Below are positions 6,406 to 62,622 of a stretch of 64,000 nucleotides of DNA, piece by piece. Source of the DNA: Perkinsus chesapeaki (lineage: Eukaryota; Perkinsozoa; Perkinsida; Perkinsidae); NCBI GenBank assembly GCA_013115145.1, contig JAAPAO010000140.1, positions 1 to 64,000 on the forward strand, read 5' to 3'. The stretch's first letter is position 1. Each line of letters opens with the position of its first letter. The position numbers were made by a program, and so were the translations under genes. The notes beneath the pieces are model-generated. The model had not been told where the DNA came from. It made no database searches and saw nothing but the letters and a program-made list of their open reading frames with translations.

Positions 6406-6536
6406 CCTCGAGTTCACCGCGCAAACTCCACGCCCCAATATTTATCACGCGACCTCTGCTTCGATTCTCTTAAATTGCACATCTGTTATACATATGGATT
6501 TAACAATATAGTATAGAATCGAAAACACTCAATGCA

Positions 6537-38479: not shown

Positions 38480-38842
38480 ATGCCTCGAAAACACAAGTCT
38501 CGGCGAGCACCGTCGACTCCTTCATCGACATCGTCGACTTCAACAAAAGAAGGAGGAGGAGTCAATAGGAGTGTTGCTGAAGTTTCAAAGGCGAGAGAGG
38601 AGGTGATATGGCCTAGTGGTGGAGCTTTTTGTTGCTAACCGATAGGTCCCCAGTTCGATTCCTCCTTCCTTTAGTTTACCGCCTCCCTCCAGCCTCATGT
38701 TGCTGCACTGAGCAAAGCCCTGAGTATTGTCCTCACCAAAAGGTGGCTTTTGCTTGGCTCCAATGGCAATATGGATGATGCAACTGAATGTGTGTTTAGA
38801 GAGCACCAGAGGGTCGTGGAGTGGCTCAGGGCGGACATGTAA
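38480..38842 (+). CDS. Small basic protein, two exons split by a tRNA-like intron
   Basis: Exon 1 (38480-38602) codes for 41 residues, starting MPRKHKSRRAPSTPSSTSST. Exon 2 (38675-38842) codes for 55 residues and the stop, ending RVVEWLRADM. The frame is kept across the 72-nt intron (phase 0). Function not recognised. The start MPRK and the Lys/Ser-rich head resemble that of the gene at 41236. The intron itself carries tRNA A- and B-box motifs and is listed separately. Confidence 0.6.
38603..38674 (+). other. 72-nt tRNA-like intron (sense)
   Basis: Bounded by AGGAG|GTGATA and CTTTAG|TTTACC. It contains TGGCCTAGTGG (38611-38621), an exact A-box, and AGTTCGATTCC (38652-38662), a near-exact B-box, about 30 nt apart. 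Overall length equals a tRNA. Stems are degenerate (T-stem and acceptor mispaired), so it is not a working tRNA gene. Confidence 0.6.
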
Positions 38843-39309
38843 TATGCTCGGGGCTCACGAATGCATCGGCAATACGCTCGCGTGAATGGACTCATAATTC
38901 GGTCTTGAAGGGGTCGCTTCACAACGGGCCGAGATTGCGTATCGAAGAAAGATGCCTGATTCTCGCTTCAGCATTTGCTATTCCCTAATGAACTTTTCAA
39001 ATAAGAGTTGTAAACAACTTTGCTCCTCCTCCTCCTCCCCCATAACCCTTTTTGTGGTGAGTAACTGTTGAGCCCGTAATGCACGTGCGAGAGACACGGT
39101 AGTTGTTGGAACCCTCGGTAATGGCTTTAAACGGGCCCACCAACAAAACTTCGTGGGCTAATCCTCTCCCAGGTCATGGTGACTCGGGCCTCGTCAATAG
39201 GACATGCCCGCCTGTGGGCAGGGGTTAACACTGTACGGACTCGGTCGAATCTGAGGGTTGGCAATTTTTGGAGCGCCTTGCGTATCTCGGTCGACTAAGA
39301 ACTGAGTCT

Positions 39310-39750
39310 GAAGAACGCGGAGCTATTGCCTTTCCGTTAGTCCTATATTCGTCGGCATCCCTTCCTCACGCATCTGGACCTTGCCCCGGCCCTCTGAAGG
39401 TCGACAAGTGGTGAAGATGTTTTTAGGACCAAACGAGCCGAGCAGCTGCTGGTGTCCCTCCGAGTAGAGCTCGAGGCTTTCCAACAGAAACATGGCAGCA
39501 ATCTCGGAAGGATAATACGGCATTTGGATGGTGAGCCTATTGCGTATCTTTCATGCTCGACCTCCCGCATATCTTGTCTATCAGGCGTGGCTACTTCTAC
39601 CGTAGCTGAGCCAGAAGCGTCCACTGATGTGATTAACGATATCATCACATCGGCGAGTCACTGCGCGGCGGAGATGCTCTTGGCGGTGAAAGCGCTGCTA
39701 GATCATCTCGATACTGTCGACCTAAACTCGAAACAACTGAAGGTATCTCT
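39310..39750 (+). CDS. Possible exon(s) of a helical protein, unknown
   Basis: From about 39433 to 39741 the plus strand is open and strongly helical (AEQLLVSLRVELEAFQQKHG; HCAAEMLLAVKALLDHLDTV), ending at a GTATCT donor. Upstream, an acceptor-like CGTTAG at 39340 could begin a further exon. It might be an upstream exon of the RING E3 gene (an acceptor TTTTTTTAG directly precedes the ATG at 39967), or a separate gene. Confidence 0.3.
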
Positions 39751-39966
39751 TTGCAAGCCTTCCGGGGAAAGTCGGTCCCTTTTAGGACGAAGAAGCAATC
39801 AACACCTGGGCGTTGGCGATTACCTTGGAAACACCGCCTCAATTGCGCATGCGTGCAGATTTTGATACCAACAGTGAATGACGGCAAAGAGTATTTTACG
39901 ATTAGATTCGTCTGAACTTGTGTTTCGTCGAAGGATACCGAACCTTGTCCATTAGTTTTTTTAGGA

Positions 39967-41202
39967 ATGGGGCAGCAGGAATCTCGGACACTTCCGCCGC
40001 TTCCGCAGCAGCGCGTGGTGGGTCCCTGGTTCGATTCCTGGGTCCGGCATCTTCCGCTTCAGATCCGTTTGAACCCCGACGGGACCTCCACTGAGGTAGT
40101 TCTCAATCCCAGCGGTCACACACTCAACGCCGACAGCTCAGCCGCAGCTCAGAGGGGCTCTGGTCGCTCGCCGGGCGGAGAACAGCTGACACCAGTCAGC
40201 ATCGAGGCCTATGTAGCTCAGCGACTTGATCGAGATTATGCAACCTGTTGAGTTAGGTTGACCGAAGCTCCTTCAGAGTTGACGATGGCAAGCTGAGCTT
40301 CACTGTGGTGGCCTCAGCCGATGCTATGGTGACAGTTTACATGAATGCTATAAACAAAAGTACGGTGTGTTGCGTCACACTCGAAGTGCAATCATCTGAC
40401 AGATGACCAACAACTTGCTCGCCATCGTCATGGCCCTCTGCGGTGGCCTGTTCTCAGCTACGAGCATTCGGAAACTCAACGGGTTGCTTGCTTGGCACCA
40501 GAGACTCGAACGCAGTTGACGTATGAACTGGAGCCGGCCACCGTTATCCTCAAGGCCATGAGCCAGCAGAGATGGCCTTTGGTCCGTTGCCGGGGATCGA
40601 ACCTGCGTCCTCCCACTTGATGATGATGTTCTTGTAGGTGGTAGAGGTCTTCGTTGCAGCGACTCAAAGCGGAACTATGATGTATCTAACAGCAGCCGAC
40701 TCTAACGCGACGGCTGTGAGGGTTTCGGAGCAAGTCCATAAGTTGCCGAATGGCACTGTGGTGGCAACGGGGGCGCTGTACGGTTTATCGGAGATAACCA
40801 AGAATAGTAAGTCACCAGGGATCGAACTCAGGACCTCGAGGTATTCATCCTAAGCAGATAACGGTTCGGCTAATTCCTCTGGCTTAGAACAGGACCGATG
40901 CTCGATATGCCTGAGTAACCCCATCAACACGGCGTTGCTGCCCTGTGGACACACCGCTCTTTGTACCATCAACCACCAGTCGCACCGTTCTAAAGCATCC
41001 TTCAGGTGCCGATTGTGCGAGGCTGCTGCAGGATGATCCCGCCAACTCCAAATGCCCGATTTGTCGAGCTCATGTCATCAGCTCAGTAGTAAATTTCCTG
41101 GCGCGCGGTCACATCTCTGTAGGTTACTCTCGACATACCTCGGAGCTGATGACTCGGATGTATGATTATATTTTTAGTTCCTCCTGTCGAGTTGATGGGT
41201 GA
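39967..41202 (+). CDS. Mahogunin (MGRN1)/LOG2-type RING ubiquitin E3 ligase
   Basis: Exons 39967-40246 (or 39967-40014 plus 40063-40246), 40279-40364, 40516-40581, 40638-40806, 40888-40962 and 41006-41202, all in frame; about 290 residues (274 if the 48-nt intron in exon 1 is removed). It matches MGRN1/LOG2 ligases in order: an MGQQES N-terminus suited to myristoylation, KLSFTVVASADAMVTVYMNA, WPLVVEVFVAATQSG, ALYGLSEITKN, and a C3HC4 RING (CSICLSNPINTALLPCGH, then CADCARLL, then CPICRAHV). It should transfer ubiquitin to membrane-linked substrates. Several of its introns carry tRNA T-arm-like sequence. It ends only 33 bp before the next gene. Confidence 0.8.
40015..40062 (+). other. 48-nt putative intron with sense tRNA T-arm
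   Basis: GTGGTGGG…CGCTTCAG has GT-AG ends, phase 0, length divisible by three and no stop, so it may be spliced or retained. It contains TGGTTCGATTCC, a B-box, inside a partly paired arm (CCTGG/CCTGG). Confidence 0.45.
40582..40637 (-). other. 56-nt intron with antisense tRNA T-arm
   Basis: Reads on the minus strand as ACGCAGGTTCGATCCCCGGC, a textbook T-arm with an exact B-box, starting a few bases from the intron's 5' splice site. The same 20 bases occur in the intron at 41575-41727. No A-box seen here. Confidence 0.55.
40807..40887 (-). other. 81-nt tRNA-like intron (antisense)
   Basis: On the minus strand it shows an A-box (TAGCCGAACCG), a 5-bp anticodon-type stem with 7-nt loop (TTATC-TGCTTAG-GATGA), a variable-arm hairpin (ACCTCGAGGT) and a B-box (AGTTCGATCCC), in tRNA order and length for a Ser/Leu-type tRNA. 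The acceptor stem is decayed. The intron boundaries almost coincide with the unit. Confidence 0.6.
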
Positions 41203-41235
41203 TTATATACCCTCCTGTAGCCCTTCCTTGTTTAA

Positions 41236-42538
41236 ATGCCACGCAAGTCCAAGAAGGCCAAAGACCAGGAGCAAGAACAGGAGCCAGCAGCAGCAGCCGT
41301 GGCTGAGGCGGCCTCGGACAACAACAAGACGAAGAAGAAGGCGAGAGAGCGTGCAAATGACGTCAAGTTGGAGCCGGACTCGCTCGAACAGCGGAGACGA
41401 GAGCTGCAGCGAACAATACAGAAAACGGTGGGTCTGCGATGGCGTGATGCATCGGGCGTGATGGTTGGGTGGTGGTAGGTGCGGAAAATGCGGGAAGAGG
41501 GAGTTGATGAGGCGCTGATTAAGGTGGAGATTAATAGGATTAAGAATAGGGAGCAAAGAACACTTATGCATGCCGTAAGAGGACATTATGAAAATACCGG
41601 AGCCGGGGATCGAACCTGCGTGGTTAGGTCAAACAGCAGCAAAGGGTTGAAAAGGGCAGCAAACACGAAGTCGTTGTGGTACGTGAGGGCGGAGCGAAGC
41701 GATTCATCATTAACGGTTTCATGGTAGATTCCGATTGCATGGAAGCAAAAGGCCAGAGAAAAGGCAGAAGTTGACTCGGCGTCGATCGCCGTGAAGAGGG
41801 CCCTCCTGTCAGCTGGAGTGGACGCATGGCTTGACCATCGAAGAGAGTAAGCAGCCAATGCTATCTCCTCTTGTGGAGACTATCCAGATACACACCCGGT
41901 CAGAAGTTTGCCTATTGGGAGCATCTCGGTGTCAAGTTCCGCGTGGAGATTGGTCCCAATGATGTCGCCCAAAACCAATGCGTGGTGGTCCGAGCTGACG
42001 AGCCAGGAGAGTGGCTGAAGCATCAGAGGAAGCGAGGAGTAAGGTTCTGGTGGTCGCGGCTATTCCACTGTGCATTCAGGTGAGGCTCTCCTGCCGCGGT
42101 ATCATTTCCGCCTTGATTGAGCTCGGTTATGATGGCGGCGGTGCTGCTGGTGACATTGACAGACTTGACGATGGCATACTGGAGGGGACAGCCGGCCAGG
42201 ACGAGGACCACGATGAGGGAGGAGATGCCCACGAGGAAGTTGATGAAGGTATTTCGCTGCCAACACGCCGCATCCGCTGGGTATTTCATTTCCTTTGTAG
42301 ATTTGGCCGGCAATGTAGCGCTCTCATCTGATGCCCCCAAAAGAGAGAAGCGTAAGACACCTTACAAGTCCTTCCTGATGAACAAGAAGAGGCAACGTAC
42401 GTCAGAGTGAAGCCTCCATTGTATTCTATAACGTCATCTCTACCAGCGGCCTCCGCTGGGCTTCGATGCTCAACAACAACATCCACGATAGTTCCTCTCG
42501 CTGGTGACTCGGCCTTGCGTTTGGGGAGTAATGATTAG
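41236..42538 (+). CDS. Protein with ProRS-like anticodon-binding domain, seven exons
   Basis: Exons 41236-41427, 41479-41574, 41728-41846, 41888-42038, 42080-42248, 42301-42396 and 42447-42538 join in frame to give 304 residues. The N-terminus is Lys/Glu/Ala-rich and helical (KKARERANDVKLEPDSLEQR). The middle, LLSAGVDAWLDHRREYTPGQ followed by KFAYWEHLGVKFRVEIGPND, matches the class II anticodon-binding fold of prolyl-tRNA synthetases (…DRxxxTPGWKFxxWExxGVPxRxEIGPRD). No catalytic synthetase motifs are present. The C-terminus is acidic then basic. It may bind tRNA or a tRNA-like RNA. The third exon is preceded by a 153-nt intron with antisense T-arm. The stop is 38 bp before the next ATG. Confidence 0.75.
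41575..41727 (-). other. 153-nt intron with antisense tRNA T-arm and GCGGAGCGAAGC motif
   Basis: Minus-strand ACGCAGGTTCGATCCCCGGC is identical to the one at 40582-40637. The plus strand also carries GCGGAGCGAAGC at 41689-41700, which recurs in introns at 56397-56411 (reverse) and 58054-58068. Confidence 0.55.
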
Positions 42539-42576
42539 TTTGTATAGTTTTTAATAAACTGTCTGGCTTGGGGTCG

Positions 42577-44580
42577 ATGCAGTCTCAAGACTGCATTGTA
42601 AAATCAACACGTCATCTTAACAGGCTTCTCTCGTCTCTGCGAAGAGAGAAGGGATCGTCAGAGCGAGCACGGTGCCTCATCGATGAGGCTTTTCGGACAC
42701 AAAAGATTGTCCCCGATTCGTTCACGTACAGTCAGGCCTTCCTCCTCGGAGCCTACAGCTGTTCTGAAATCGCCCCCATAGTGCGAGCCAAGGTATCATC
42801 TCTGAATACAGTTGCAGTGAACTCTGCGATAGCTTCCTGTGCCCGTATGGGTTGCGAGGCCGAGGCCCGGGAACTGCTGCGATTGAGCGAGTCGAACAGT
42901 CTGGCCAATACTCGTACCTACAACGCTTTCCTCGCAACTGTTACGACCGGCTCGGCAGCTCTGACAGTATGGCGGTCGATCCCAGCTGGGCTGAAAGACG
43001 GGTATACTCTGCAACTTGTCTTGAATCGATTGGCCCAAGATGGTCATCCACCCAAAGACTATCACACTGTGCTTCAAGAGGTCCGTGGTATCATCCCCAC
43101 CGATCGTCATCATTTGGCCACGGTCATCTCTGGTTGCATTCGAGGTGGATATCCGCTCGACGGTCTCGAGGCTTTGAAGGCTGCTAACGTGAAAGCCTGC
43201 GATGACAAGGTGCTCGCCACCTGCGTGCTGTGTGCTTACGAGCGGCTCGGTATGTGGCGTGAAAGCATCGACTTGGTTGGAGCAATCGACGAGCCCGATG
43301 CTGTATGCTACACTGTGGCGATGGCTGTCTGTGCTCGAGCTGGACGAGGCAAGGAGGCCGTCATTCTGTGGGGAGAGATGCGCAATCGTGGTCTCACTCC
43401 TCAGCGGCAAAGTCTCTCCGCAGTGGTGCGCGCATGTGAAGCCGCTGGCGACTACGACAACGCCATACGAATACTAAGTGAGATTGGTGAAGAAGCTCCG
43501 AAGGTGGGTGCGGTCACCGATCCGACCAAAAGATTCGCTAGCAGCCGGCCAGAGAGGATCACTCTTGCCTATCGAGACCTGCTCTGCGATAGGCTTGAAC
43601 TGTCGCTCAACAGGGGCTCCGCTGTCTCTCCTTTGGGTGTCGCCGACCATCGCCAAGAGACAGTGCGAGTCGGTGTTGATTTCGGTACCGGACCCGCGCC
43701 CCATCAAGATGCGCTTGCCAAGCTTTTACCATCAACAGAGGAGCGTATGCGCGCCCTTGCGGCTGTCACCGATCTGAAAGGCCTTGCCGAAAAGGTGGGG
43801 CTCGGGTGTATAGAGTACGGTGCTGCAGCCGCCGGCCTGGCCTTGCCTCATGGTGATGTCGACGTTACTTTGGTGCCGCAGGGGTTTGACTCCTCAACTG
43901 CGTGGCTTGAGAGCCTCTCCGATGCCGACAGGTCGGCCTATCCACCACGGGAATCTGCCCAGGCCTGTTTGCTCTCCCTTTATCGAATGCTCAATGATCG
44001 CTCTCCTTTCGGTGTTGTGGCCACTGGTCTCGGCGGAAGAGTCCCTGTTCTGACAATCCTCCACAAGGCCACTAAAACAGTGATGGATGTCACCTACATA
44101 AACGCCCTCGGCTGTCGGAAGAGCATCTGGCTCTCTGAACAAGTGGCAGAGCTACCTCAACTTAAAGATGCTATCCGCGTGGTAAAGTATTGGATGAAGA
44201 GACATGGCATGACAGGCCAGTCTAGAGGGTGGCTCGGCGGCTATTCTCTCGCGGTGGCAATGGTCGGAGTGGCGAAGGCCATCGACGCCCCCAACGACTG
44301 CGAAACCCTCTGTCGAGCTTTCGTTCGTTTGCTGCGCCAAATGGACATAGAAAGGCATTGCATCAGCCCTCGGCTTGGTGGAGTGGTCCCTAAGGTGTGT
44401 GGGAGAGGGCAAAGTTTGTCCATTGAAGACCCTATTGAAATACAATGGGATTTGGGAGCCATCCTTGGAGAGGAGAGGACGGCGGCACTACTTGGCAAAA
44501 TTGGACAAGTCGATGCATGGTGTGCACGTAACAGTGACTCAAGTTTGACTGAATGGTTGCTGCTTGCTGTTTCTGATTAA
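42577..44580 (+). CDS. PPR domain fused to a non-canonical poly(A)/poly(U) polymerase
   Basis: 667 residues, no introns, ATG at 42577 (the frame opens earlier only through a TTG). Residues about 10-310 form repeated helical pairs of PPR type (VNSAIASCARMGCEAEAREL; DAVCYTVAMAVCARAGRGKE; SAVVRACEAAGDYDNAIRIL). Residues about 370-660 are a nucleotidyltransferase of the Trf4/TUTase class: EYGAAAAGLALPHGDVDVTL with Asp427 and Asp429, third Asp504 in KTVMDVTYIN, and the central domain (VVKYWMKRHG, GWLGGYSLAVAMVG). The usual Gly-Ser of the active site is Gly415-Ala416. PPR domains bind RNA by sequence, almost always in organelles, so this may be a self-guided mitochondrial RNA-tailing enzyme. Confidence 0.88.
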   Translation: MQSQDCIVKSTRHLNRLLSSLRREKGSSERARCLIDEAFRTQKIVPDSFTYSQAFLLGAYSCSEIAPIVRAKVSSLNTVAVNSAIASCARMGCEAEARELLRLSESNSLANTRTYNAFLATVTTGSAALTVWRSIPAGLKDGYTLQLVLNRLAQDGHPPKDYHTVLQEVRGIIPTDRHHLATVISGCIRGGYPLDGLEALKAANVKACDDKVLATCVLCAYERLGMWRESIDLVGAIDEPDAVCYTVAMAVCARAGRGKEAVILWGEMRNRGLTPQRQSLSAVVRACEAAGDYDNAIRILSEIGEEAPKVGAVTDPTKRFASSRPERITLAYRDLLCDRLELSLNRGSAVSPLGVADHRQETVRVGVDFGTGPAPHQDALAKLLPSTEERMRALAAVTDLKGLAEKVGLGCIEYGAAAAGLALPHGDVDVTLVPQGFDSSTAWLESLSDADRSAYPPRESAQACLLSLYRMLNDRSPFGVVATGLGGRVPVLTILHKATKTVMDVTYINALGCRKSIWLSEQVAELPQLKDAIRVVKYWMKRHGMTGQSRGWLGGYSLAVAMVGVAKAIDAPNDCETLCRAFVRLLRQMDIERHCISPRLGGVVPKVCGRGQSLSIEDPIEIQWDLGAILGEERTAALLGKIGQVDAWCARNSDSSLTEWLLLAVSD

Positions 44581-44898
44581 TCGATTCACTGTTGCTTTCA
44601 TAGTAACATGGACGGCTTGTGGCATGGAAAGCACTTTGGTTAGCCGGACAGGTTAACTATTAAACGAGTCGTTATTTAACATCAGACGTTTCTCTCGTGG
44701 ACGTTAATGACTCTTCAGAGATTGCTGGTTTAAGGGTGCTTTGACCGTACTTTGTTATTGTATTGATGATTAACATTTAACACCACATACGATAAGCTGC
44801 AGAGTAAATGCTAATTTAACACATTACGTAACACAACTGTCCCCTCAGTGAGATCAACCCTCTTGTTCAGCTCATCACGGTGGGCTGCATCCGATACC

Positions 44899-47800
44899 TC
44901 AATCACAGTCGATGATCTCAATGTCTTCGCTGGATGGCGGATCATAATCCGACAGCGACACTGAATCGACTACATCACCAACAAGCATTTCGCTCGAGGA
45001 CAACGAGACGCCATCCTCGATAGCATCCACGTCGGTGAACGGATAGTCGCCGCTCGACGGCAAATCAAGGTCCTCTTCCAGGCATGGCTGCGCAAGGGGA
45101 ATCTCGTCCTGTGTGTGATCACTAATAATCTCGGCTTCGGACGACTGACTGCTCTGTAGCTCTGTTTTACCGCTGGAGGCCTTCCGCCCACTCAGCTGAC
45201 TCGGCGCGACTTCCCACGTTCCAGGGAGACGATTGTCAAGCTGACCCAGATTCCGCCGAGCCCTGAGCTCTTCGATAGGTGCATCGCATCGCACGAAGTA
45301 GTTATCACAATGGTAAGCATCCGTGCAACCTGCAGCCATCACAACAGAGCCTTCTGTGCAACTCGTACAGATCAGCCTAGCTGCACGAGATCTTGCCTCG
45401 GCCCCTCGTGCTGCGCTACTCCCAGCGAACGCCACCAGAGCCGGATCGCGGTCCAAGCATGTTTCGCAAACCCAACGAGTGCCTTGTCGACTGCCCAATC
45501 GATGATGGCATAGGAAGCACTCTGAACTCATGCTTTCTACAGCTGGCAGATCTTCGGTTAACCAAGCGGCCACACTCGGGAGGATCGGTGCGAGGATGCG
45601 CTGGACCGCCGGGAAGAACTGCTTCGTCAAGTAGTAGTCAGCATCGATAACAACATTCCTCGACCCAGCGATCCTGTACGGCGGTACCACTCTGTCCAGG
45701 AGCTTAGCGTTCGACCTGTCACCAGCTTTTCTTGCCACCACATAAGCCACACGTTCCTTGTAACCGGTGTCCAGTCCTTGTAGGGCGGCTACATGGGCCG
45801 CTGGAGGGAGATTCTTACTGCGATAATTAAGCCGTACTTGGTTTTGAAATATGAATTCAGTTTTGCTAATCTCACCGCTATAAAGCCGTCTGATGATCTC
45901 GCGCCCGGCTCGTCGGCCAGCCTCCAGATGAAGCGTCTCGTCTGCCGTAGGGTCCGTTCGGAACATAGCCTCGAGCACACTGTGCACAGACTTTGCCGTG
46001 AAGGGGCAGCTGTCTCGCCGGACTGTCTCGATGCCCTTGGCGAAGAACTCTGGTTTAGCTTTAGGATGCTCATATGCCCAACCGCAATATCTTTTCTTTG
46101 ACACCAAAATACATGGCATGCAGACTTTCTCAAGTTGCAGTTTGATCGGCCATGGGTTAACACTCGTCACACAGTCCGCCAATCTGCCTCCAAACTCGAA
46201 CGCAGCTTCCACAGACCCGCATGATTCACTCGGCGGCCTGCACCATGAGCTGTAATAAAAGACCGCAACGCTGTTGCTGTGAAACTCACCGTATGAACAT
46301 AGAATCGGTGTCCCCATACAAAACTGTGGCGCCCATGTCCTCAGCAATCGACATGGCCTGCTGCAAAGTCCGCCTGGCTGTCAAAACAATAGCATCAGCT
46401 AGCTCCGAGCATGGCATGCGGCCAGAGAATGACGCACCAGCGTAGCCATACCTGAACTCTATGTGAGGAAATGATCAACTATGTGCAGCATCGCTACGTC
46501 ACGTTAGCCAGCAACTTAAGCCCGAGTTGCCGGGCATCCATAATTCTATATAGTGCGGGAGAATCTTTTGAATTCACGCGTTTCATTGCACGCTTGACCA
46601 TAAACCTTGTCTGGAGGACCTGTGAGATACCATTCGACGAAGACCAAAAGATCCAGTCGACGAACCTCGTGGAGCATCCGGGGCAAGATGCCAACTCTAC
46701 ATGACGGCTGCACGAATACCACTCCATTCGCAGCAACAACAACATTATCATCCTGGAGAATCGATGACGATCGTTTAATCTACAAACAACAAATATGTCA
46801 TTCAACGATCCTACGTAGTAGTCGAAAGTTACCGTATGAGGTTTATCTCGCTGCGTGCCCAGTGGTACTGTCACATCCAGGTGTTCAACACGCCCCAGAC
46901 ATGTTGAGTAGCACATATTATAGGCAATTATAATGCTTGGATATAGACTCTGGAAGTCTAGAATTATAGTAGGCGTTCGGTAATAGCCAGATCTTGGCTC
47001 AAGGATCATAGGAGTTCCCTCCAACGCCGGTTGTGCTTTCACCTAAGCAAGTAGGCCTAAACACAGTTACCAGCCTAGGTCCCCTAGCTCCAGTTGCGCA
47101 TTCGAAAACAATCAGTTGTTCGCGGGGCTCACCTGCGCTTTGGATGATGTGACTAAGGCGAAACCGCTCCTAGTTGCCGCGCGATGGAGAATGCACTCAA
47201 CTCTATATTGGCTTCCTCGAGTCAGCACCTGAGTAGAAGATTCCTGCTCGGAAGATTGACGAACTCTACAACAGAGTTCACGAACGCCCCCTAAATTAAA
47301 CGAAATAAATAATTACCTCCTCGACATCCGGCATTCCTAATACGGATGACATCTCAGATGCTCGACTGAGAAGAGTACTGGCATCCAGCAGCTGCAAAGC
47401 GAGGAGGACCATCCGTGAGGTATATTTAAAGGCTTTGAGGCACAATGCTCTATCAGTCCACCAATCCTGCAGCAACCACATCGGGATATTCGGCAGCGTC
47501 AATCCGAGCAGCTGCCTTGCTGCACCATGCAAAGTCGTTGTTGACAACTTGAGCGAATCCTCCTGCCGCAAAGTCTGCCAAAGATCAAGCGTTATGCGGC
47601 CGAATAGGGTAGACGCTCCCATAGGCCCTGGAACAGGCGCGATGCAGACTCGATGGAATAGATACTCCGAGTTTGGAACGCGGAGGGATCGGGCCCGCTC
47701 AGCCGCATACACGATACCCTTCCGAGAGGCATCCCAGCTAACCACTACTGTGGGATCGAATTGACCAAAGACGTGGTCGAGGGCGAGGATGAGCTCGGAC

Positions 47801-49404: not shown

Positions 49405-49563
49405 GACAACATCTTACGGCAATTTAATATATCAACTACTCGACAATTGACAACTGTACGCAAACCAATACATCTTCTTCCAACACCAATTTGATAAATC
49501 TCAAAGCATGAGGTGGTGCCCCGCCCTATCAGGCGGTCCCGATTAATTTGCAGTCAATGACTC

Positions 49564-50483: not shown

Positions 50484-50920
50484 TCAGATACCAAACTTCC
50501 AGCAGTGTGTTGAATAAAAGACCATCGCTCCCTCCTCGTCCTCCTTCGCCCTTCTAGTACCCATCCCACGGTCTCCTTCACTCTGCCGTGGCCTCTCTAT
50601 TTGCATCCTCTTGCGACTTCCTCTTAGACCGTGATTGCCGTTGGTGGGCGAAAAAAGGTCTGTACTACTCGACGTAAAGTGCCTCCGACTGGACCTGCCG
50701 AAAACAGCGATACCAAGGATCGAACCCGTGCTCAGTTGAATGAAGGTGTAACAGTAAAACCGCTACGCCAAGCAGCCGCCTCGATCCTCACCCGAAGTTC
50801 AGTCCATCAGCCTTTCTTTCAACACCAGGACTCAGAGAGCCCATAGCCAATTGACTAGGCAACACAGACTTCCGATGCTTCGGTCCTTCCGAGTCGATCG
50901 AGCCCCCCAAACCTCCCTCG
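50484..50920 (-). CDS. Hypothetical protein split by a tRNA-like intron
   Basis: On the minus strand, an exon from about 50916 to 50792 (KSVLPSQLAMGSLSPGVERK) joins across a 97-nt intron (50791-50695) to an exon ending at the stop 50486-50484 (HFTSSSTDLFSPTNGNHGLR and then a Arg/Glu-rich end). The frame is kept (Gly codon split). The 5' end is unresolved. Function not recognised; composition suggests a disordered, basic protein. Confidence 0.4.
50695..50791 (-). other. 97-nt tRNA-like intron (sense to its gene)
   Basis: On the minus strand it runs GTGAGGATC … CGGCAG, with an exact A-box (TGGCGTAGCGG) and an exact B-box (GGGTTCGATCC) about 38 nt apart in the right order. The T-stem has wobble pairs; the acceptor stem does not pair. 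Intron length is about that of a tRNA plus splice signals. Confidence 0.6.
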
Positions 50921-51629: not shown

Positions 51630-52660
51630 ATGACTGACTCAATCGTAGAAAAGGACACTAGAATGGATGGACATGGACGACACTCGACCAATGAGATTTG
51701 TGGCGCGCAAGAAACTATTGCCTATACCGCTGACGGCAATCAGAACCTGTTCATTGACGAAGACCGAGCTCCACGTGTTGGGATAATGGAATCTTCTTCA
51801 AGTGAGCTGGTGCATGCATCAACCTAAGATTCTCCTCTTTGCAGACGACGGGGATCAAGGTGACGTAAGTGGTGGTTCTCTGCGGAAAAACGAACCCATG
51901 GTGAAAAAATTACTATGTCGTCACGCGAGGTTGAAGCAGGTCATTGACTGCCACCGAAGATACCATGCTGCCGATTCTCGGGACCACCGACATGGAGACC
52001 TCAATGCCGCCGACAGGTCCTCGTGTGATTCTATCATGGACGGGGTGCTGAAGGAGTATTATAACAGCAGAACCGCTGCAAGTACGTCCGCATTTAGAGT
52101 GACCAAAATCACTTTCCTTCAGCCAACCGAGCAGGCACCACCAAGTCCCTGCAGCGGTATTGGAGGTCTGATGGTAAGATACTCTCCAGGCGTTCCTCCA
52201 ATACTTTTCAGAAACTTCCTCTCCGCGCGGAGCTACACCCTTCTTCCGTGGGAAATTCCGCCGCAAAAGCCGAACGTTGAAGTTAAATGACAAAGGAGCG
52301 CCGCTCCTGCCTTCAACAGGACGGTCTTGGACAGGACTGAGGCACAACAGCGCCGGTGGTGGACCGCCCAGACGAATCCACGAGCTTCCTGGAGTGTTAC
52401 CGACACCAATAGGAGGAGGAAGAATCTTCCCGGACACTGATGATGAAATTGATGCGGCTGAATACCGAGGGAGCCGGATGGTAAGTGGGGTGGTGTTATT
52501 AGTAGTCACATACACAACGCTTAGGGCAAAGGCTGTTGCTGTTGAAATCGCCGTTGGAGCTCCTAAACTTCATATCGAAATATCTCTATATTGTCTGAAT
52601 CCATCATTACTGATTGGCGATAGTGCTTTATCATCGCTAACAGGCTCAAATGCAAAATGA
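51630..52660 (+). CDS. Hypothetical multi-exon protein
   Basis: Exon 1 (51630-51801, start MTDSIVEKDTRMDGHGRHST) joins at GTGAGC…TTTGCAG to exon 2 (from 51845, NDGDQGDVSGGSLRKNEPMV, then RHARLKQVIDCHRRYHAADS). A donor GTACGT follows at about 52082. A later exon around 52277-52483 is Gly/Pro-rich (GGGPPRRIHELPGVLPTPIG; FPDTDDEIDAAEYRG). No domain recognised. Charged, low-complexity, soluble. The 3' end is approximate. Confidence 0.45.
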
Positions 52661-52918
52661 ATATGAACTATTAGTTATTATATCACTTTAATGAGTATTA
52701 ATAAAATATCTACTAACATCATCTCTAGAGATAGTCTAACCATGACCACCGGAGACCATATCATCGTAGAGTACGTCCTATTAGGTGCATGATGTTCAGC
52801 AGTTGCCTAACCCTCCACCACAGACCAACCCGCCCCTTGGACCATTCTCCTCGGGCATCTTGCTCCCGATGGCACAACCAAGCATCTGCGACAGGGTGGG
52901 TATACCAGTGGTAATTTC

Positions 52919-52931
52919 GTGGCGCAGTGAC
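52919..52931 (+). repeat. Dispersed motif GTGGCGCAGTGAC, copy 2
   Basis: Preceded by AATTTC and followed by TTTTAGGTTACAG, in the spacer (or a 5' intron) before the Trf4-like gene. Confidence 0.6.
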
Positions 52932-53077
52932 TTTTAGGTTACAGTGGACGTCGCTTTGTTTATGCATCTCGTTGATTCATACGCTCTCTCAGGCGACAGT
53001 ATGAAAAGGATGCGTCTCTGCAGTTTGGTAGCAGTTTGGTACCCTCCTCATGACCGCGCGCCACGTAATTCCCTCAG

Positions 53078-56000
53078 ATGCAGTTCATGATAGCAGGTTT
53101 TCGGCCAAGGGAAAATGAAATTAATGACGATTGTCAAGTGCTTCGGTGCATCCCGTTTGGATCGTAAGTTCAATCAGCCCTCCTCCCCTAAAAGGTCCAA
53201 CTCACCTGCTTGTTGCTTGTTGCAGGTTCACGTACAATCTCCATTTACCATGGGCAAGCGATCTAGATTTTGTTGTAAGCTCCGTTACTACTTTTATATA
53301 ATCTACATTTTGTATAATAATAAATAATTGCCGTGGCGTGCGGTGGGGGACGGTGCTTCACACGTCCGTATTACCATCGTGTGAATTGTACCTTACGCTC
53401 ATTAAACCAATTCTGAATGGCCGTGCAAACGTATTGTGCAGCAGCTTCGATTGATACCCTCTGTGTCCAGAAATTTTCCCACTAAAAGTACCCTCAGGGC
53501 GTGGGCCCATTTTTGCAGCATCTGACTTCGTATATTTATCGTTGATTTACCGTGGCGTGCTTCTGCTGTCTCAGTTACTGCCAGCGTCAGCTCAATACGC
53601 AGACCTTCTCTCTCCGGGCGCCACCGCCATGTCGGCTCGTACGGAGTCGGTCGGCCCTGTTGTTGTTGGGGGTGAAACCTCCGAGGTGATAAAGTATTAT
53701 TAGTTTTCCTATTTCTGTTTTAGGCACCAGAAAGTGACGGGAACCGTGGCATTGATAACGTGAAGAAGGCCGAACTATGCGCGGCATTGTTGGGGGAGAT
53801 ATCAGACTATCTCGCCCGGACTCTACCATCAGGTAACCAAACTTGGCTTGCTTAACTCGCTCGTCGGACTATTAAATTGCTCCTTCGTTACTGACTTGTT
53901 CCGTCTTGTACACTTTTCGTTTGGCCCCATATGCCCAAGTGCAGCTTAAGGGACACACGCACGAATTCTTCATCGGAAACTACTTACTTCCCATTGTATC
54001 CGAAACCCATCGGAAACCGTTGTTCATTTTCAAAAGGCATTTTAATCAACAATCTGATGAGTTTTGGTTAACGTCCCAGTGCCCCTCACAGGAACAATAA
54101 CCTCCCAGCCAACAGTGATATCCTCCTCGAGGATTCCTTTAATAACAGTGTCATGTCGCGAGTTCATCATGGACAGCTTCGATCGGCAGTGGTGAGCAGA
54201 CCTGGAACGGCCCGATCGATGACTAAAGACTTCAGGTGTTCCTCCTGTTCTCTCGGCTCGGAGTCCTTGTGTCCGATGCATGCTCCAGTGCAGCTTCAGA
54301 TATCTTTATCGGGGCCACGCCACACAGGTGAGGTGTTATTCAGAAAATAAGCACATTCGGAATTCTTTCGGGTGCGATTTTGGTGGATGTTTTCTACAAG
54401 GGAAAGTTTGTGGGGAAGATTCATCTGCCTTTTTCATCACCTTATATCGGTATTAATAGTTAACCCTTGCAACATTAAAGCTCTATAGTTAATATTTACT
54501 TTACCTTCCTTCTATCACACCAAGTGGCATGTAGCGCTCGCGCTTTTATCGTGATGAAGACACCAAAGCAGTAACGAGGTTGAGGGCCATCGAATCGGTT
54601 AGCACTACTTAGTAACCCAGATTGTCAACTTTCCATTCCTCAAGTGTCATAGTTTTATCACCAACTTATTGCATCTGTCCGATCTGTCGCATTGATATGT
54701 CAGTAGCCTTTACTTGCCTTGGCTCCCTAAGTTGGTATCTTCACCAAATTAACTCTGCCTGCTGAGTTATTATTCCTGGATGACAGCTGCTGTATTAATA
54801 TATTACTTGCCATTGGCGCAAGTTCGATAGTTGCCTGTGGTAACCCCGTCAAAGTGGCATTTAGTATCATGCTGGCATGTCTGCAGTTGTCTTGTAGAAG
54901 GGGGGATTTTCGAACATAGTTGAAGATACTTTATTCATGACGTGATGGTTACGAGGAGGTTAAATAATAATGATAATAAAACTGATCTCCGTTATAGTAT
55001 ATTATTACACATTCTGTAGTATATCTTTTTCAGGCCTTGAGACATCCGCCTATATCGCCCTCATGAGCCAGCATTTCGAGTGTCTCCGGCCGCTGGTTTT
55101 GATGGTAAAGCACGTCCTGCTCTGTGATGGTTTGGTATCGACATACAACGGAGGTGTCAGCAGCTACACTTTGGTAAGCAACACCACGTACGGACCTCGG
55201 TGATATGCTAGTTGGGCAGCAGGTCCTCATGACTGTATCATTTTTAAATCAATTTTACTCCAACGATTGCTGGATCGGGGTGCCTCTCGGTCAACTACTT
55301 CTCGGTTTTCTTGGTTGGTATGGCGGTGACAACGATAATGATAAAGATGAGGTTGGTGTTGTTGGATGCTGCTGCAGTGGTGGTGGTGACGAAGATACCC
55401 TCCTTTATAACGGAGACAGAGTGTCTCTAGTGTTCCCCGACGGTAAGTCATTTTATACATAATAATGCGTATCCTACAGCAATCTATATCAGTATCGCCG
55501 GTTGAGTTCTCGGTAGCACTATGAAGATTCGCAAGCGCAGCTCCAAGCTGTCAGTTTGTATGACTACTCAGCCTTGTGGCATGGACGCCTTATAATTCTA
55601 TATGTGCTTATTGCTAGCTTTATCAACGTTCCCCAGGGGGAGATTTTTAAAACATCATGTCTCCGCCAGACTGTCAGAAATATGCACCTCTATACGTATT
55701 GATTTAATAGTATTGTTTATCTACCTTAATCCATCTCACAGTACTCCACTGCTATTGTCGTTATTATTCATGCGGAAGCGAATACGTATTTTGCGGACCT
55801 CGGCGATGGCGGTGTTATTATTTCACACATTTCAGGTTCAACATTCACATCGTTTGATGCGAGTCGGTTGATTATCCGACCGTTGAGTTCTTCTTCGTCC
55901 GGTGACTCGGTCAACTTCGAGCTTCGGTCAGAAAATGATCCTTCAATAAATTTGTTTAAAATGGATATGTTGGTTATCCTGGATCCTCTCTCCCCGCTCG

Positions 56001-56759
56001 GTGAGTGTAGCGGCGGAGAGTGTATCATCACCACCACGAAGTTGGTCCAAGAATCTATCGCACTCGCTGGAATATCTTTTATCCGTTTTAGTGTATACCA
56101 GTACTCTGTAGTTGAAATAATTCGTAATTAAGAGTTAATCAATATATTATACTATTATAAAACCGTCTTTTCTTCATTATGTAGCTCTTTATATTGAATT
56201 ATCATTATTATGTATAAAACGTTCATTATTCACCTTCGCGTGCTTCCTTGTATTCGGCTCCTTTATTACTGAGTGTTCCCCACAGTACTGTTCTATAATA
56301 TACAGTCTTCGTTGTTCTCCCGAGGAGAACTTGTCTCTCAGGAGAAACCCTGAATCTCGGCCGATCGGCGTGGCGTTGGCCATCAGTCACCGCAGCGCTT
56401 CGCTCCGCTAGAAAAAGTCTGCTTTCTGGCAACTGGTGGGGCCAAAAGTGAGCAGGAGACATTTTGTGGCGCAGTGACTCGACCCTTCAGATACGGTATG
56501 TCTATCCCAACAGTGTGGGTTGCAGCCAAGCGTGCCGGTCATGGGAGCGTTTCGGAGCCCCTGGTCGGCGCTGATAGTAATGGCTCCGCAACAGGCACCA
56601 CGCGGAGCTCCGAGCTCGAAGGCGGCAACGGTATGCATGCTGGTGGAAATAGATCCGATGACGATACGACAATGAAGAGTGTGCAGTCGGTTACCGAGGT
56701 AAAGTTGCATATTCCTCCCACGTCATGTTTTACGTCATCATTTCAGGCCGGCTCTTGAC
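53078..56759 (+). CDS. Trf4/PAPD5-like non-canonical poly(A) polymerase, many exons
   Basis: Clear exons: 53078-53163 plus 53226-53274 give CIPFGSFTYNLHLPWASDLD, the FGS…LPxSDxD catalytic loop with both Asp residues. About 55035-55162 gives GLETSAYIALMSQHFECLRP and LVLMVKHVLL, then GGVSSYTL. The next exon (from about 55224) gives VLMTVSFLNQF and LGQLLLGFLGWYG. An exon at 55840-56012 ends in MDMLVILDPLSPL, the PAP-associated block. The last exons start at about 56489 and end at stop 56759 (AGS). A third Asp may be in SGAILVDVFYKG near 54380. Middle exons (53610-54340) are only partly fixed, and more 5' exons are likely. It should add short A tails to nuclear RNAs for decay or maturation. Confidence 0.75.
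56397..56411 (-). repeat. Intronic motif CTAGCGGAGCGAAGC, copy in Trf4-like gene
   Basis: Exact 15-bp match, in opposite orientation, to 58054-58068 in an intron region of the homoserine dehydrogenase gene; 12 of the bases recur at 41689-41700. Confidence 0.6.
56466..56478 (+). repeat. Dispersed motif GTGGCGCAGTGAC, copy 3
   Basis: Lies in the last-but-one intron of the Trf4-like gene, 10 bases before its 3' splice site (CCCTTCAG). Confidence 0.6.
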
Positions 56760-57240
56760 GGTGGCTGTGATATTAGCGAATAGTTCCTAAGTGTATCATT
56801 TGTGTAATTGTCTCCTACTATATGTCACATTTGCCCCCGCCATTCCTCAGCACTAGTCTCGTAATGTAACATAACATTATCATCATCAAATGAAATCGTG
56901 AATTGTCACACTTGACCACCATATGGTTTTCTTATATATATTTTATAATAATTACTATGGCGTCCCTGCCGGTCTTGATTCACTTCCTGGCCCGTTGGAT
57001 TCCGTCCGACCACTGTCGTCGAAATAGTCATTACGTCATGACACTTCTCTTCTGAGATTAGTAATCGTTGCTGCAGTTTTTCATCCAATCTCGGAGAGTA
57101 GTACTCCTACGTAGCATCTTCAGCAATGTTGCGTTGGCAGTCTCACCATACACCATTTCGGCAGAAGCTTCTCATTGGCTCCTCACTTGAATGGTCAACA
57201 CATCCGACGATAGGGTTAGGTAGCTGAGTTGCGCTCGCTG

Positions 57241-59322
57241 ATGCCTTCACCTCCTCTTCCCCTACTTAGAGTTGGCATGCTCGGTTGTGGTGTTGTTGGT
57301 GGGGGTGTGATAGAGCTCTTGAAACCGTACAAAGATACTATCAACATTTGCAAGGTTCGACATAGCACCGATGTGCTTGAATCATTCCTTCAAGCTTTTA
57401 TTGACCGAATGCTACCAATTGTTATTATCAGGTATGCGTCCGCGATCCCAGCAAGAAGCGTGACATCCAATTCCCAGAAGGGTGCGAGATCCTCCCTGAC
57501 CCGGAAGCCATTCTTAACGACGAAACTATCGGTATGGATGTTGTCCTTGATAATCGGTATATCGCTGTTCAGACATTATAGTCGAAGTTATGGGTGGCAC
57601 TGATGAGGCATGGGCATGCACTCAGAAGGCCCTGAAGTCCGGCAAGTATGCCATCATCATACTGCTCGATCTTCATCACTTTCTGTCGTCTTCTTGAATC
57701 CTGCCTACATATTTTAACCGCCCTGAAACATCCCTGTTGAAGTGCGCCGAAAATTTCGTACCGGGTTTTGCGTGTTGGATCCCTTAAATGGAAGTATGCG
57801 ATTTCGGAGGCCTCGAGGTGCGACCTAGCTAACCTCGTAAGTATCTTGCAACAGCTGGTAGTTGTTTCTACAATTGAGCCCATTGTTAATCTGAGCTAGT
57901 AGTAGTGTGCCCGAGAGTTTGTCATGTGATGAATGATCTGCTTCAGCTGATGATGAAATGATCAGGCACGTGGTGTCAGCTAATAAAGCTCTCATTTCCA
58001 AGTACACCGATGAGATCGAACGTCTGGCACTGGAGCAAAATGTAGATACATTTCTAGCGGAGCGAAGCACTCATTCTTTTCAAGGTTCAATTTTTATATG
58101 AAGCTGCTGTTTGTGGAGGCATTCCCATCATCAAGACAGTCCTCCGTGGATTGAGGGCCGATACTTTTAATCACATCTCGGGGTAGCGTTTTGCCGGCGA
58201 TGTAATCAAAGATATGTTCAGAATCATGAACGGCAGTACCAACTATATATTGTCCCGTATGGAGAATGAAGGTGTCAGCTACGAGGAGGTATTCAGGTAG
58301 CTGATAGAATAACAATTGTTATACAGGTTATCAATGATGCTCGTCGCCTAGGGTATCTAGAGGCAGATCCAAGTGCAGGTGCGCATGCGTGCTAAATCTT
58401 GTGTAATTGTCTCCTAGACCTTGAAGGGTATGATGCACGAAGCAAGATATGCATTCTAGCTCGCATCGGTTTTGGAGTGACTGTTGCCGATGAAAACAAA
58501 CTGTGAGCGATCTGAGTTATAGCCTTTAACGCTTCTGTAGTTACACTGCTGGTATAACCAACATTACATCTCGTGACTTCGAGTTTGCCAAGTCTCTCGG
58601 CTACACCATAAAACTCATCGCCAAAGCCCGACTTCTTCCGAGTAACTATATTATCTTCAATGGCTTCCTAATCCTTCGGTATAGGAGATAACGCGACCAC
58701 CGAAAACCGTTTGGAGTGTTGGGTCTCCCCTGCATTCGTGCCTCTAACGAATGCCATGGCAAAAGTCAGCGGTCCAACCAACTGTGTGGAAGTGTCCACA
58801 GTTCAAGTTGGCCCACAATGGTGACATCTTCCCTATTGGCGTGATCCACTTTGTCATCACTAGGTACATAGGAGCTGGTGCTGGGAGGTATCCCACAGCG
58901 AATTCAATTGTCAGTGATGTACTCGAGGCGGTTGACAATTGTTCAGCGGGAATAGGGTAAGTCTCCTTCCCCTTTGGCCCGGTTGCTCATCTCATCAGAT
59001 TCTCGTCACCCTACGGAAGTCGCCGTATCGATGGCAAGGTCGAGGCTGACATCAACGCCCGAGTGTAGGTCAGTTTTGACGATCTTCACGCTACTGTTTT
59101 ATCATCAGTTACATTCGTGTGGCAGATAAGCAATCAGCCGTTGCTACCCTAACTAAGGAAGGTGTCCAAATTGATCCTGGTGGGTTGCTTACTCTTTTTC
59201 TGCCCGGCACAAGCTCTTCAGATACTCCAGCAGATGTGGTGATTTCGACTAAGTCTGTGAGCCTTTTACAGGCCAAGGCTGCGCTGGACGCTTCAGCGGT
59301 TGTCATGCCTATTTTAGAGTAA
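57241..59322 (+). CDS. Homoserine dehydrogenase, many exons
   Basis: ATG at 57241 ([12 protein letters not shown]). NAD(P)-binding [16 protein letters not shown], then exons [73 protein letters not shown], the substrate block [93 protein letters not shown] and a C-terminal ACT-like part ([20 protein letters not shown]) to the stop at 59322. It reduces aspartate semialdehyde to homoserine with NAD(P)H, on the way to threonine and methionine. It is the stand-alone form, not fused to aspartokinase. At about 58132-58186 an in-frame TAG shows that a short intron (GTCCTC…GGGGTAG) must be removed. Confidence 0.9.
58054..58068 (+). repeat. Intronic motif CTAGCGGAGCGAAGC, copy in homoserine dehydrogenase
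   Basis: Exact match to 56397-56411 (other strand), just after the exon ending LEQNVD. Confidence 0.6.
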
Positions 59323-60053
59323 CAATCACACCATGAGTTTTTCTATCACGACAACTGTTGAGTTAACCAGTCGATCGGTGGTCCCTTTCCGAGGGATTTC
59401 GGTACTTGGCACCGACCTTGAGAGTCGCTGCAGAGAGGTCGCTAGATAGTTGACGTACCGTAGGTTAAGTTCGCACAGCAACAGGATTTTCGATGATGTC
59501 CTCCTCACAGCTATTTAGATTGAGCCGCGACATCAATCTCAGAATATCCGTACTATTAATTGTTGAGTTGCCCCTATTAGAAATTACTAAACATAAAGAC
59601 AGTACAATCTTGGACAGCGGAAATGACGTGATTAATATCGAGACCGATGGTGAACCACGAAAGCGACCATGAAAACCTTTTGGCGATGAAGCCGTGACAC
59701 TGAAAGGTCCCGTGACCAGGGGCATGATGAAAAGAGGACTCTAGGACCCCGACAAGGTCAGGGCCTTCTCAAGGATAAGGGATCTTCTTTAGAACCGCCA
59801 GACTGTAGAATGTTGATTGTTGAGTGGTAAATAAGATAGGAACACATTATCATCATTATCCCTCAGATGAACTATTTCGGGCAAGGGGATCTACATTGAC
59901 AACTCCAACATATCAAACTTCTTGGAGAATGGGGATCGACTACAGACGTCTCCCTTCAAATCAGAAAGACAGACTTCTGGAATCAGAAGTTCCATCGACA
60001 AGAACTATTTCTATCGACCCTATGAAAGAAAAACAATAGCTCCTGAGTATCCC
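59323..60053. other. Spacer with one small open frame
   Basis: A 59-codon frame at 59493-59672 (MMSSSQLFRLSRDINLRISV) is the only candidate. No splice sites or homology support it. Convergent genes end on both sides. Confidence 0.3.
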
Positions 60054-62622
60054 CTATTGCATCCTGTCTTTCACAGATTTACTGATAAAGTCGTCGATAA
60101 GCTGCTTGGCTACTTGAGGTTGACCGATGGGCACCGAGTGCCCCGCGTTCCTGGTGACAACAGTAGTGCCATTCTCGCTAAGAAAGCTCACCTTATCGAA
60201 AAAGTGCGTAAGACTGCCTCCTTCACGGGAATAGCCATAAACCACTCTCGCCTCGTTTGGCTGAATGAGCAATGACTAGCTCCGGCAGCTAGGAGTAAAC
60301 GGAATCACAATTCGAACCCGTCTTCCACTTCTATCTGACTCGCCTTTGGTTATCCCTCACGCGAATTCGTCGAACTTCGATTATGAAGATTTATTAAGCA
60401 ACCCACCGAAATTAAAGCTTTAATTCAATCGATTGTTACGCGTGTTGTGTTATTGAGTAACTTACTCTCCATGGGCCCATCCAAATCTTCCGTGTTGAAT
60501 TGTCATACTCAGCTTTGCCATCCCATTCAATGTGCTTGAGCCATTCTTCAGTCCTGAGGTACGAGGAATTACATTTGCCACTTCGTTACGTGATGTGGCT
60601 TACCCAACAAAACCGTCCTTGACGTCCATTTGCCCTTCCCACAGTAAAACAGGCACACTAGCATTGAGCAATGGTGGAATGAACTTAGCCAGCGGTCTCA
60701 TAATATCCTTCTTCATCCTATCCACTACGTCATACTCATTTCTTAGCAGGAGTAAATTAATTAACCGAATAATAAATCACCAACGAGTTCGTACTTGAAC
60801 TTCCTCTCTGGAACGTTGAAGGCCTCCCTCACTTGTGGACGATTGGCAAAGTGCTCTAGTTCTCGGCTGCTACTGCCCATCTTCCTGTAGAGAGCATTAA
60901 TGTCAGGCAGTGCCCCTCCAGTAAAGATAAATCCACCTTATGTCATAGAGACTGACTCCTCCGCTTTCCTGATGTATCAAGTCCTCTAGTTTCTCACGTG
61001 CTTCTAGGGATCCTTCCCAACTGACGAATGATAATCAATTTCACCGTTTTGCTGGTGTAAATAGTGGGAGGCTCCCCTTTACCCTTCTTTGCACGTGACA
61101 CTGAAGTGAAGCTCCGCTGCCCAACTTACTCATAATTAAGTGCGAGCCTTTGACTTCTCCTTGCCCATCCACGAGCCTCCACAAGTTTGTCTTCACCAAT
61201 AAGACCAAAATAATAAGCTACATCGGCCTTGACGGCAACTTGATAAGCTAACAAGCATCATGTCTATGGACGAGGCAGTGAGGCTCTTACCTGGATAGGT
61301 CAGCCCGTTGCCGATTGCTAGCCCCGCCAGTGGTACATTTTCGATTGGGTTACGAAAGAGGTAATGGCCAATCGCTGGAACGTAGTGGCCTGCATACGAC
61401 TCACCGACGATGAACCTAAGCAAAAGAATTGCAAATTGTGGGGAGGAATGGCTTCAGATAATTGATGGGCAGTAAAAGTTATGACTAAAGATCAGCAGCC
61501 AATAAATGTCTTCTGAGCATTGCCCGTAAAGAGTTGCGAGGTGGTGGAGCCAGCTCGCCCCTGATTTATGGGCCCCAACAATAAGGGTTCCAGTGGCATA
61601 TGAAAATTGAGGCGGAACATATACAAAAAAAGTAACATGATAATATAGTCTGTTAAACCAGGGTAGATGCTCACAGGTAAGCTGTCACAGCTTGAGTAAA
61701 TGGTAATAGGACACTTCACGACAACAAAAAGAACATACCAAAAGATCCTACAAAGGATGGCCCTTCAAGTTAGGCTTCACTTCATCGTAGAATTTAGTTA
61801 AGAAAGTGTTGAGCTGTCGGGTGACATCGTGTTCAGTGTCATGAGCATAGCACGAGTAAGAACGTGAGTAACTGTAACCGGTGCCCACTGGGGAGTCAAC
61901 GAATATCATATGATAAGTTTCAGCCCAAGTGATGTTCCGGCGAACCTGATCGGATCAATCGGCCACATCAAGCTTGGTAATTGACAGTACCAGCTTGGAC
62001 GTGCCCACGAGTTCGAGAGGCCCAACTTCATAGAAAGCGCTTATGAGCCCGGATCCCCCAGGGCCGCCCGCCAACCAAAGTATGACAGGAGTACTTGGGC
62101 TGTTCTTGAGCGTCTCGTTTATTGGAGGGAAGTACCTAAGGACCATACGATGTGATACGCATTGGTTTGTCAATGTGTATGTCAGCGGCTCACCAGTAGA
62201 ACATGTCAGCGCTGCAGCGTGAATCAACCTCAATGGTTCCAGCTTCACTCTCTATAGCGAGAGCCTGATCAGTACGAGAAAGCTATGATGGATTAACTGT
62301 GGACCAAATTCGACTTGGAAGTCTATCGTTGAAACGATTCGATTTCTGTCTCTATACAGCTTTTCAACGGATATTTCAAGAATAGAAACTTCCTAAACCA
62401 TCTCCCTGCTGGGAAGCTCCTAAACGAAGAACCTCGAGTTCAATTTCGCCAACCTGTCACTATTCTCTCAATAGGCCTTGAAAAGGTGTAGATGAAGGAA
62501 GAGCGTTTCGAGCTCACATTTGGGTCGCTTGATATGTTGGAGAAGTCCACTGGCGCACCGGGGATGCCCCTAAAATTGAAAGCAAGAAGCAACAGGGTGC
62601 TTGCGAACGCGAATCTTCCCAT
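60054..62622 (-). CDS. Secreted serine carboxypeptidase (S10 family), many exons
   Basis: The ATG at 62622 opens a signal peptide (MGRFAFASTLLLLAFNFRGI). Exons then follow the S10 order: IEVDSRCSADMFYW, WLAGGPGGSGLISAFYEVGP (oxyanion region), HMIFVDSPVGTGYSY, FIVGESYAGHYVPAIGHYL with the nucleophile Ser, VKADVAYYFGLIGEDKL, FANRPQVREAFNVPERKFKY, VPVLLWEGQMDVKDG with the catalytic Asp, IEWDGKAEYDNSTRKIWMGP, and NAGHSVPIGQPQVAKQLIDD with the catalytic His. All three catalytic residues are present. The usual NGGPGCSS is AGGPGGSG. It removes C-terminal residues from peptides in an acidic or secreted compartment and would complement the aspartic proteases. The penultimate intron (about 60455-60270) holds a tRNA T-arm-like sequence. 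Confidence 0.88.
60270..60455 (-). other. Intron with sense tRNA T-arm-like sequence
   Basis: On the minus strand it includes GACGGGTTCGAATTG, a B-box match, 30 bases before a CTCCTAG and 60 before a CATTCAG acceptor. No convincing A-box, so weaker than the others. Confidence 0.4.

Follow-up and report, generated by a model that had tools for sequence, protein, structure and literature searches.

The question raised by this locus is whether short introns can be built from transfer RNA (tRNA) sequence. The locus is a 64-kb stretch of contig C47 (the window), part of an assembly of 35.4 Mb in 884 contigs. A preliminary description of the window held that tRNAs, or elements derived from them, had been captured as new introns in at least four genes, with RNA polymerase III (Pol III) box motifs as their mark. 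Six introns of the window do contain such an element. It is approximately 36 nucleotides (nt) long and consists of a tRNA variable loop, the T-loop with its B-box, the 3′ acceptor strand, a discriminator A and a Pol III terminator. The reading favored here is that these are dispersed repeats of tRNA gene 3′ ends, copied widely in either orientation and often forming almost the whole of a short intron, and that the copies are 3′-anchored mosaics by which some introns were created. Taken as a whole, we give this reading about an even chance of being correct.

The family is apparent in genome-wide motif counts, for which reversed patterns were the controls. The motif GGTTCGATYCC has 863 copies compared with 28 in the control. 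It is followed 6-14 nt later by TTTTTAG in 30 places, compared with none in the control, and 25 of these 30 have the same length, 29. The full motif, C-N3-GGTTCGATYCC-N11-TTTT, is found 244 times and its RAAYCC variant 184 times, each with 0 control matches, although some of the variant copies (repeated lines) are likely true tRNA genes. With counts this far above chance, the earlier proposal of a dispersed tRNA-derived family in introns is upheld.

The anatomy was determined from a sample of 61 elements in the window and loci L032-L051. Removed were strict matches within five tRNAs recognized by Rfam, matches within 80 nt of a locus end, L034:1514, a coincidence in the CCT4 coding sequence, and second counts of palindromic B-boxes (64 reduced to 61). 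Conservation in the 61 elements is limited to tRNA positions ~42-73 plus the terminator, i.e. approximately −10 to +25 around the B-box. The TTTT run begins exactly at +22 in 26 elements, with any other offset represented by two or fewer. CCA follows the discriminator in only one of the 61, thus an origin from mature tRNA was rejected. The terminator position together with the near absence of CCA points to a tRNA gene's 3′ end, terminator included, as the source. An A-box is found upstream of the element in 5/61 copies, as compared to 0.6% of random 38-mers, thus a minority may be near full length. The A- and B-boxes at tRNA spacing that had been described are therefore a property of some copies and not of the family. 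A blastn comparison of 61 windows of 75 nt at E<=1e-5 gave 52 linked pairs, the database being tiny.

Copies are clustered. Among 100 places listed, 39 are within 2.5 kb of another, where uniform placement with approximated lengths for most contigs gives a mean of 10.6 and a maximum of 26 in 500 simulations. Leaving out contig C48, 24 of 85 places are clustered. That contig displays a strong local cluster, with fifteen exact B-box copies inside 18 kb (C48:18185-36311). The genome also contains 56 RVT_1 matches of unsorted types, thus reverse transcriptases are present.

The elements of the window are not tRNA genes. ARAGORN found no tRNA in the 64 kb, and neither did Rfam, even at E 10; this identity was therefore rejected. 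The Rfam search, which covered the window and L032-L045 (140 kb), passed five tRNAs in L032-L045, the same five that were removed from the element set; true tRNAs are thus outnumbered by elements in the sample. Genome-wide, at least 62 tRNAs were scored.

A profile trained on 57 elements from outside the window was run on the window and, as a control, on the window reversed. The six introns score 18.1-37.7 bits, whereas the reversed window reaches 6.8 at most (Table 1). Of the seven introns listed in the preliminary description, six thus carry the element. The seventh, at 60.3 kb in the Peptidase_S10 gene (earlier placed at about 60270-60455), was rejected as an element with a best score of −7.2, equalled by 151 control positions, but the intron itself is supported. 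Two weaker matches with a score of 11 are found on the + strand near 27903 and 23051, the latter within a carboxylesterase frame.

Table 1. Element introns of the window, the host gene of three of them, and the Peptidase_S10 intron. P0138 is a P. marinus protein and P0139 a P. olseni protein; scores are profile bits; HMM, hidden Markov model.
Feature	Position	Strand	Evidence
Intron, 72 nt; sense element with A-box-like sequence and B-box (AGTTCGATTCC)	38603-38674	+	score 18.1; removed in alignment with P0139
Intron, 45 nt; sense tRNA-3′-end element, B-box 40028-40038	40018-40062	+	score 33.7; removed in alignment with P0138 and P0139
Intron of 56 nt in a + strand gene; the element is antisense, with its B-box at 40593-40603 (-)	40582-40637	-	score 27.2; removed in alignment with P0138 and P0139
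Intron of 81 nt in a + strand gene; antisense tRNA-like element of almost full length	40807-40887	-	score 19.5; removed in alignment with P0138
Probable intron in a + strand gene with an anticodon-binding domain; the element is antisense, with its B-box at 41606-41616 (-)	41575-41727	-	score 37.7; HMM
Possible 97-nt intron in a - strand gene; sense element with B-box at 50716-50726, preceded by an A-box-like sequence	50695-50791	-	score 23.1
Host gene, RING-finger protein (PF13920); seven introns in alignment, three of them elements	39967-41137	+	
Intron of Peptidase_S10 (serine carboxypeptidase) gene, without element	60289-60465	-	Peptidase_S10 match spans the intron

Removal of element introns is supported by protein homology in five cases, four in the window and one in CCT4 (L034:1904-1950, 47 nt, antisense element, by P. 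olseni homology). Over 38480-40011, the alignment with P0139 shows 144/224 identical amino acids (aa) with 38603-38674 spliced out, and spliced alignment of the RING-finger gene with P0138 shows 194/269 aa identical. The reality of four of the introns claimed earlier is thus confirmed, but the donor of the second is at 40018 and not at 40015, because P0138 and P0139 both retain the Val that precedes it. For the 81-nt intron the aligner placed the 3′ end at 40887 with P0138 and at 40857 with P0139, the two proteins differing in length there. When this intron was used as a query in a similarity search, the sole match was to itself. The PF03129 match is just downstream of the 41575-41727 junction; a shorter alternative, 41575-41629, is possible by way of an earlier AG at 41629. 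At 50695-50791 plausible reading frames were joined by eye, and the HMM described below called no gene there. Because P0139 spans 38.5-41.1 kb as a single protein, the six introns fall in two to four transcription units, apart from the rejected S10 gene, and the count of at least four genes is not confirmed.

The host genome is probably that of Perkinsus or a close relative and probably not that of P. olseni, as judged from the sequence. The closest match of CCT4 is its P. olseni counterpart, with 85% identity by BLASTP and 90% in multiple alignment, and 433 of 455 aligned residues are identical in a spliced alignment with 14 introns. A search with DNA polymerase zeta matched no close relative known by name. 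The assembly carries eight exact copies (control 0) of a dinoflagellate/perkinsid-type spliced leader.

For the placement of elements in genes a small home-made hidden Markov model (HMM) was trained on the window plus L032-L051 (264 kb). By its rough counts, 28 of the 61 elements are in introns, 25 in intergenic DNA and 8 in exons, and element density in predicted introns is 4.1-fold that of intergenic DNA (p 5e-7) and 6.7-fold that of exons. Predicted introns of <=130 nt account for 19 of the 28 intronic copies, and 16 of these 19 are in introns of <=60 nt; 11 are sense and 8 antisense, and both orientations thus occur as had been noted. On the terminator side the edge of the intron falls 18-24 nt past the B-box in 16 of these 19 short introns, while the opposite edge varies (9-43 nt), and the splice sites fall outside the conserved core of the element. 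Three further element introns interrupt regions that match Pfam domains in the HMM-spliced products, namely PAP2_C in L040 g2 and g5 and Glu_synthase in L043 g4. Five of the 25 copies called intergenic have a splice-site pair better than that of 90% of random places.

The T-stem bears on the kind of copies these are. In true tRNAs all five T-stem pairs were formed in 8/8 tested, of 18 distinct sequences. In the elements the variable pairs 49:65, 50:64 and 51:63 show no excess over column shuffles. They are formed in 26, 38 and 19 of the 61 sampled elements, in 39, 73 and 41 of a first sample of 100 sequences, and in 33, 41 and 48 of a second 100-line sample with repeated lines removed (n=84); pooled, all three are formed in 23/184 as compared to 22.1 in shuffles. 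Yet columns 49, 65 and 64 are far from background composition, with A+T shares of 8%, 7% and 18%. Simple decay of paired stems would be expected to leave a pairing excess at least at 49:65. An unpaired stem in which columns 49 and 65 remain more than 90% G or C therefore favors a mosaic origin over the decay of single copies. Linkage of positions 59-60 extends to 63-64 in the right half (0/2000 shuffles) but not to 49-51 in the left (p 0.17), and no link is seen between the left trinucleotide and the right one (p 0.36). This places a break within GGTTCRA, although linkage is short-range everywhere in the elements and, in the second sample alone, the right-side link of position 60 is not significant (p 0.14). 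Thus what had been described as captured tRNAs is better described as tRNA-gene 3′ ends, with pairing at chance and conservation confined to one end.

Under the favored reading, the copies would be 3′-anchored, 5′-truncated fragments of Pol III transcripts, or of the genes encoding them, that were inserted by reverse transcription or by break repair. A template switch between tRNA-like templates within GGTTCRA would leave left and right halves from different tRNAs. In genes, a copy often takes up nearly the entire 43-60-nt intron, with the flanks giving GT and AG, and in sense copies the terminator T-run sits at the position of the pyrimidine tract before the AG. At least some introns would have arisen by such copying instead of by refilling of older ones. 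A58 is a methylation site and a block to reverse transcription. In a more specific version, reverse transcription of Pol III precursors would begin at the U-tract, halt at the T-loop and continue on a second tRNA-like template, and the product would lodge in genes as a ready intron with its own pyrimidine tract, so that perkinsid introns would be produced or remodeled from mosaics of tRNA 3′ ends. This version is tentative, and we consider it rather unlikely as specified.

Several observations weigh against the favored reading, in part or as a whole. For the mosaic structure, column 51 at 54% A+T is near background composition, and when repeated lines of the second sample are kept once (n=90) the p value is 0.018 for 51:63 and 0.058 for the three pairs together. 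The lost linkage between left and right may also result partly from decay of linkage with distance. For the location in introns, 16 of the 20 sampled loci (L032-L047) were picked for the presence of a B-box, with L048-L051 picked otherwise. The HMM counts are rough because, when five element introns were later compared with homology, the model proved exactly right for only two (40582-40637 and L034:1904-1950); it called 40018-40062 exon, shortened 40807-40887 (end 40831) and predicted no gene at 38603-38674. Nine of the 28 intronic copies are in longer predicted introns. The median predicted intron is 61 nt overall and 50 nt among introns of 38-130 nt, and with introns of such lengths an insert of 36 nt takes up most of the space in many cases. 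For intron creation, target-site duplication, as judged at intron junctions, shows no excess, with a mean of 1.70 nt in 20 element introns and 1.47 nt in 169 others (p 0.62). No second, empty-site copy of the RING locus, the one locus tried, was found in the genome. Finally, of five paralogous pairs compared only one is informative, the PAP2_C genes g2 (1636-2404) and g5 (7631-8746) of L040. Each has an intron whose codon position and phase match those of its counterpart, yet the element inside is sense in one gene and antisense in the other. Barring two independent hits, this suggests that at least one old intron was refilled. The claim that the introns are new is not supported as it was stated. 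The behavior of the element introns fits that of introners, with intron gain short of proof.

The shared position of the g2/g5 intron is a point for the explanation that ranks next after the favored one. It holds that SINE-like repeats (SINE, short interspersed nuclear element) insert anywhere, copies in exons are lost, copies in old introns are kept and the remainder of the intron is trimmed, with no intron created. The absence of junction repeats in excess agrees with this, as do the 25/61 copies in predicted intergenic DNA and the median length of introns of 38-130 nt, which is 51.5 nt with an element and 50 nt without. However, if insertion into non-coding DNA were neutral, a 4.1-fold enrichment over predicted intergenic DNA would not be expected, and near-total trimming of the old intron would be needed every time. 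We consider this explanation plausible, with a probability clearly short of even.

Less probable, and in our view doubtful, is that the elements are introners of the transposon type, in which a non-autonomous element enters exons, brings or duplicates its splice sites and makes introns de novo. The near coextension of element and short intron that is seen in the nearly constant terminator-side edge, the occurrence of both orientations and the clustering of copies are all consistent with it. A target-site duplication signal is missing, however, and the splice sites are not part of the conserved core.

If the elements were entire functional tRNA genes that had been scattered at random and had decayed, this would account for the B-box, discriminator and terminator being in tRNA-gene register and for the A-box kept in a few copies. 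But T-stem pairing is at shuffle level even though columns 49, 64 and 65 are far from background, and chance scatter does not give enrichment in introns; decayed whole tRNAs were rejected on the pairing, and this explanation is improbable. Slightly more improbable still is convergence, i.e. a splicing or TFIIIC-binding signal that arises repeatedly in introns without copying, for although the set lacks long-range linkage and resembles draws from a weight matrix, its members lie outside genes as well as in introns, where either orientation occurs, the distance to A-TTTT matches a tRNA 3′ end and the full motif has no control matches.

Other short repeats share the introns of this genome. The sequence GCGGAGCGAAGCG has 410 copies genome-wide with 0 in the reversed control, two of them in the window (56396-56408 and 41689-41701, the latter inside the 41575-41727 intron). 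Of 17 sampled copies of its core, GGAGCGAAGC, 11 are in predicted introns and 0 in exons, with intergenic copies seen as well, and several are followed by ATTCATGTTT and a T-run ahead of the AG. AATTTCGTGGCGC has 409 copies (control 0; window 52913-52925), and 11 sampled copies of its core comprise six in introns, five intergenic and none in exons. A palindromic repeat, ATCGATCACGTGATCGATT, is found within predicted introns at L032:9799, L043:9177, L045:7472 and L050:1518, and a repeat that starts TATCTTAGGT(T)GAA is found in introns and intergenic DNA at L033:1883, L044:4982, L045:8821 and L049:8871. The tRNA-like family may be one among several intron-filling repeats. Elsewhere in the window, three adjoining aspartyl protease open frames are found at 5131-9957 (-).

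The nearest precedent is in rice, where Iwamoto in 1999 reportedly found a p-SINE1-like intron in the CatA catalase gene. The rice intron is likewise a tRNA-derived retroposon that serves as an intron. It is, however, a SINE in a single gene, whereas the Perkinsus elements are a genome-wide set of 3′ ends. Transfer RNA-derived SINEs in general, p-SINE1 among them, have a B-box, sometimes an A-box, and a Pol III terminator, and the Perkinsus elements share the B-box and the terminator, with an A-box in a few copies. They differ in that there is no conserved sequence past the terminator and no target-site duplication signal at the intron junctions, and most copies have no recognizable 5′ half.

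Introners are, according to Gozashti et al. (2022, PMC9860276), mostly consistent with DNA transposition; those of ascomycetes have neither target-site duplications nor terminal inverted repeats, and some families of this kind are suspected to be RNA-based. The Perkinsus elements resemble introners, as characterized there, in that many similar sequences appear to form introns of unrelated genes, and introners are enriched in genes in most genomes. They are unlike those introners in having a core of ~36 nt that is a divergent tRNA 3′ end with a Pol III terminator. The terms 'tRNA', 'SINE' and 'Perkins' do not appear in the main text of that paper. The introner elements of Amoebophrya, a related alveolate lineage, are likewise repeated introns, but according to Farhat et al. 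(2021, PMC7789003) they carry repeats, both inverted and direct, and their splice sites are often non-canonical, while the Perkinsus elements are GT-AG and show no excess of junction repeats. An earlier survey of Perkinsus genes reported introns in 69.2% of 104 genes, most of them <100 bp, and its intron account makes no mention of tRNA (PMC3101222). In the open-access literature searched, none of the titles listed concerns tRNA-based introns.

Introners are the main known mass source of spliceosomal introns, and the origin of introns is an old open question. Because the copies described here are short and divergent, similarity searches of introns may miss such elements. The sequenced relatives of Perkinsus allow a direct comparison of orthologous introns. 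If the more specific version with a stall at the T-loop is true, the family would be a class of introner built on tRNA genes. A family of tRNA-gene 3′ ends in introns would, if true, tie Pol III transcripts to the gain or turnover of introns.

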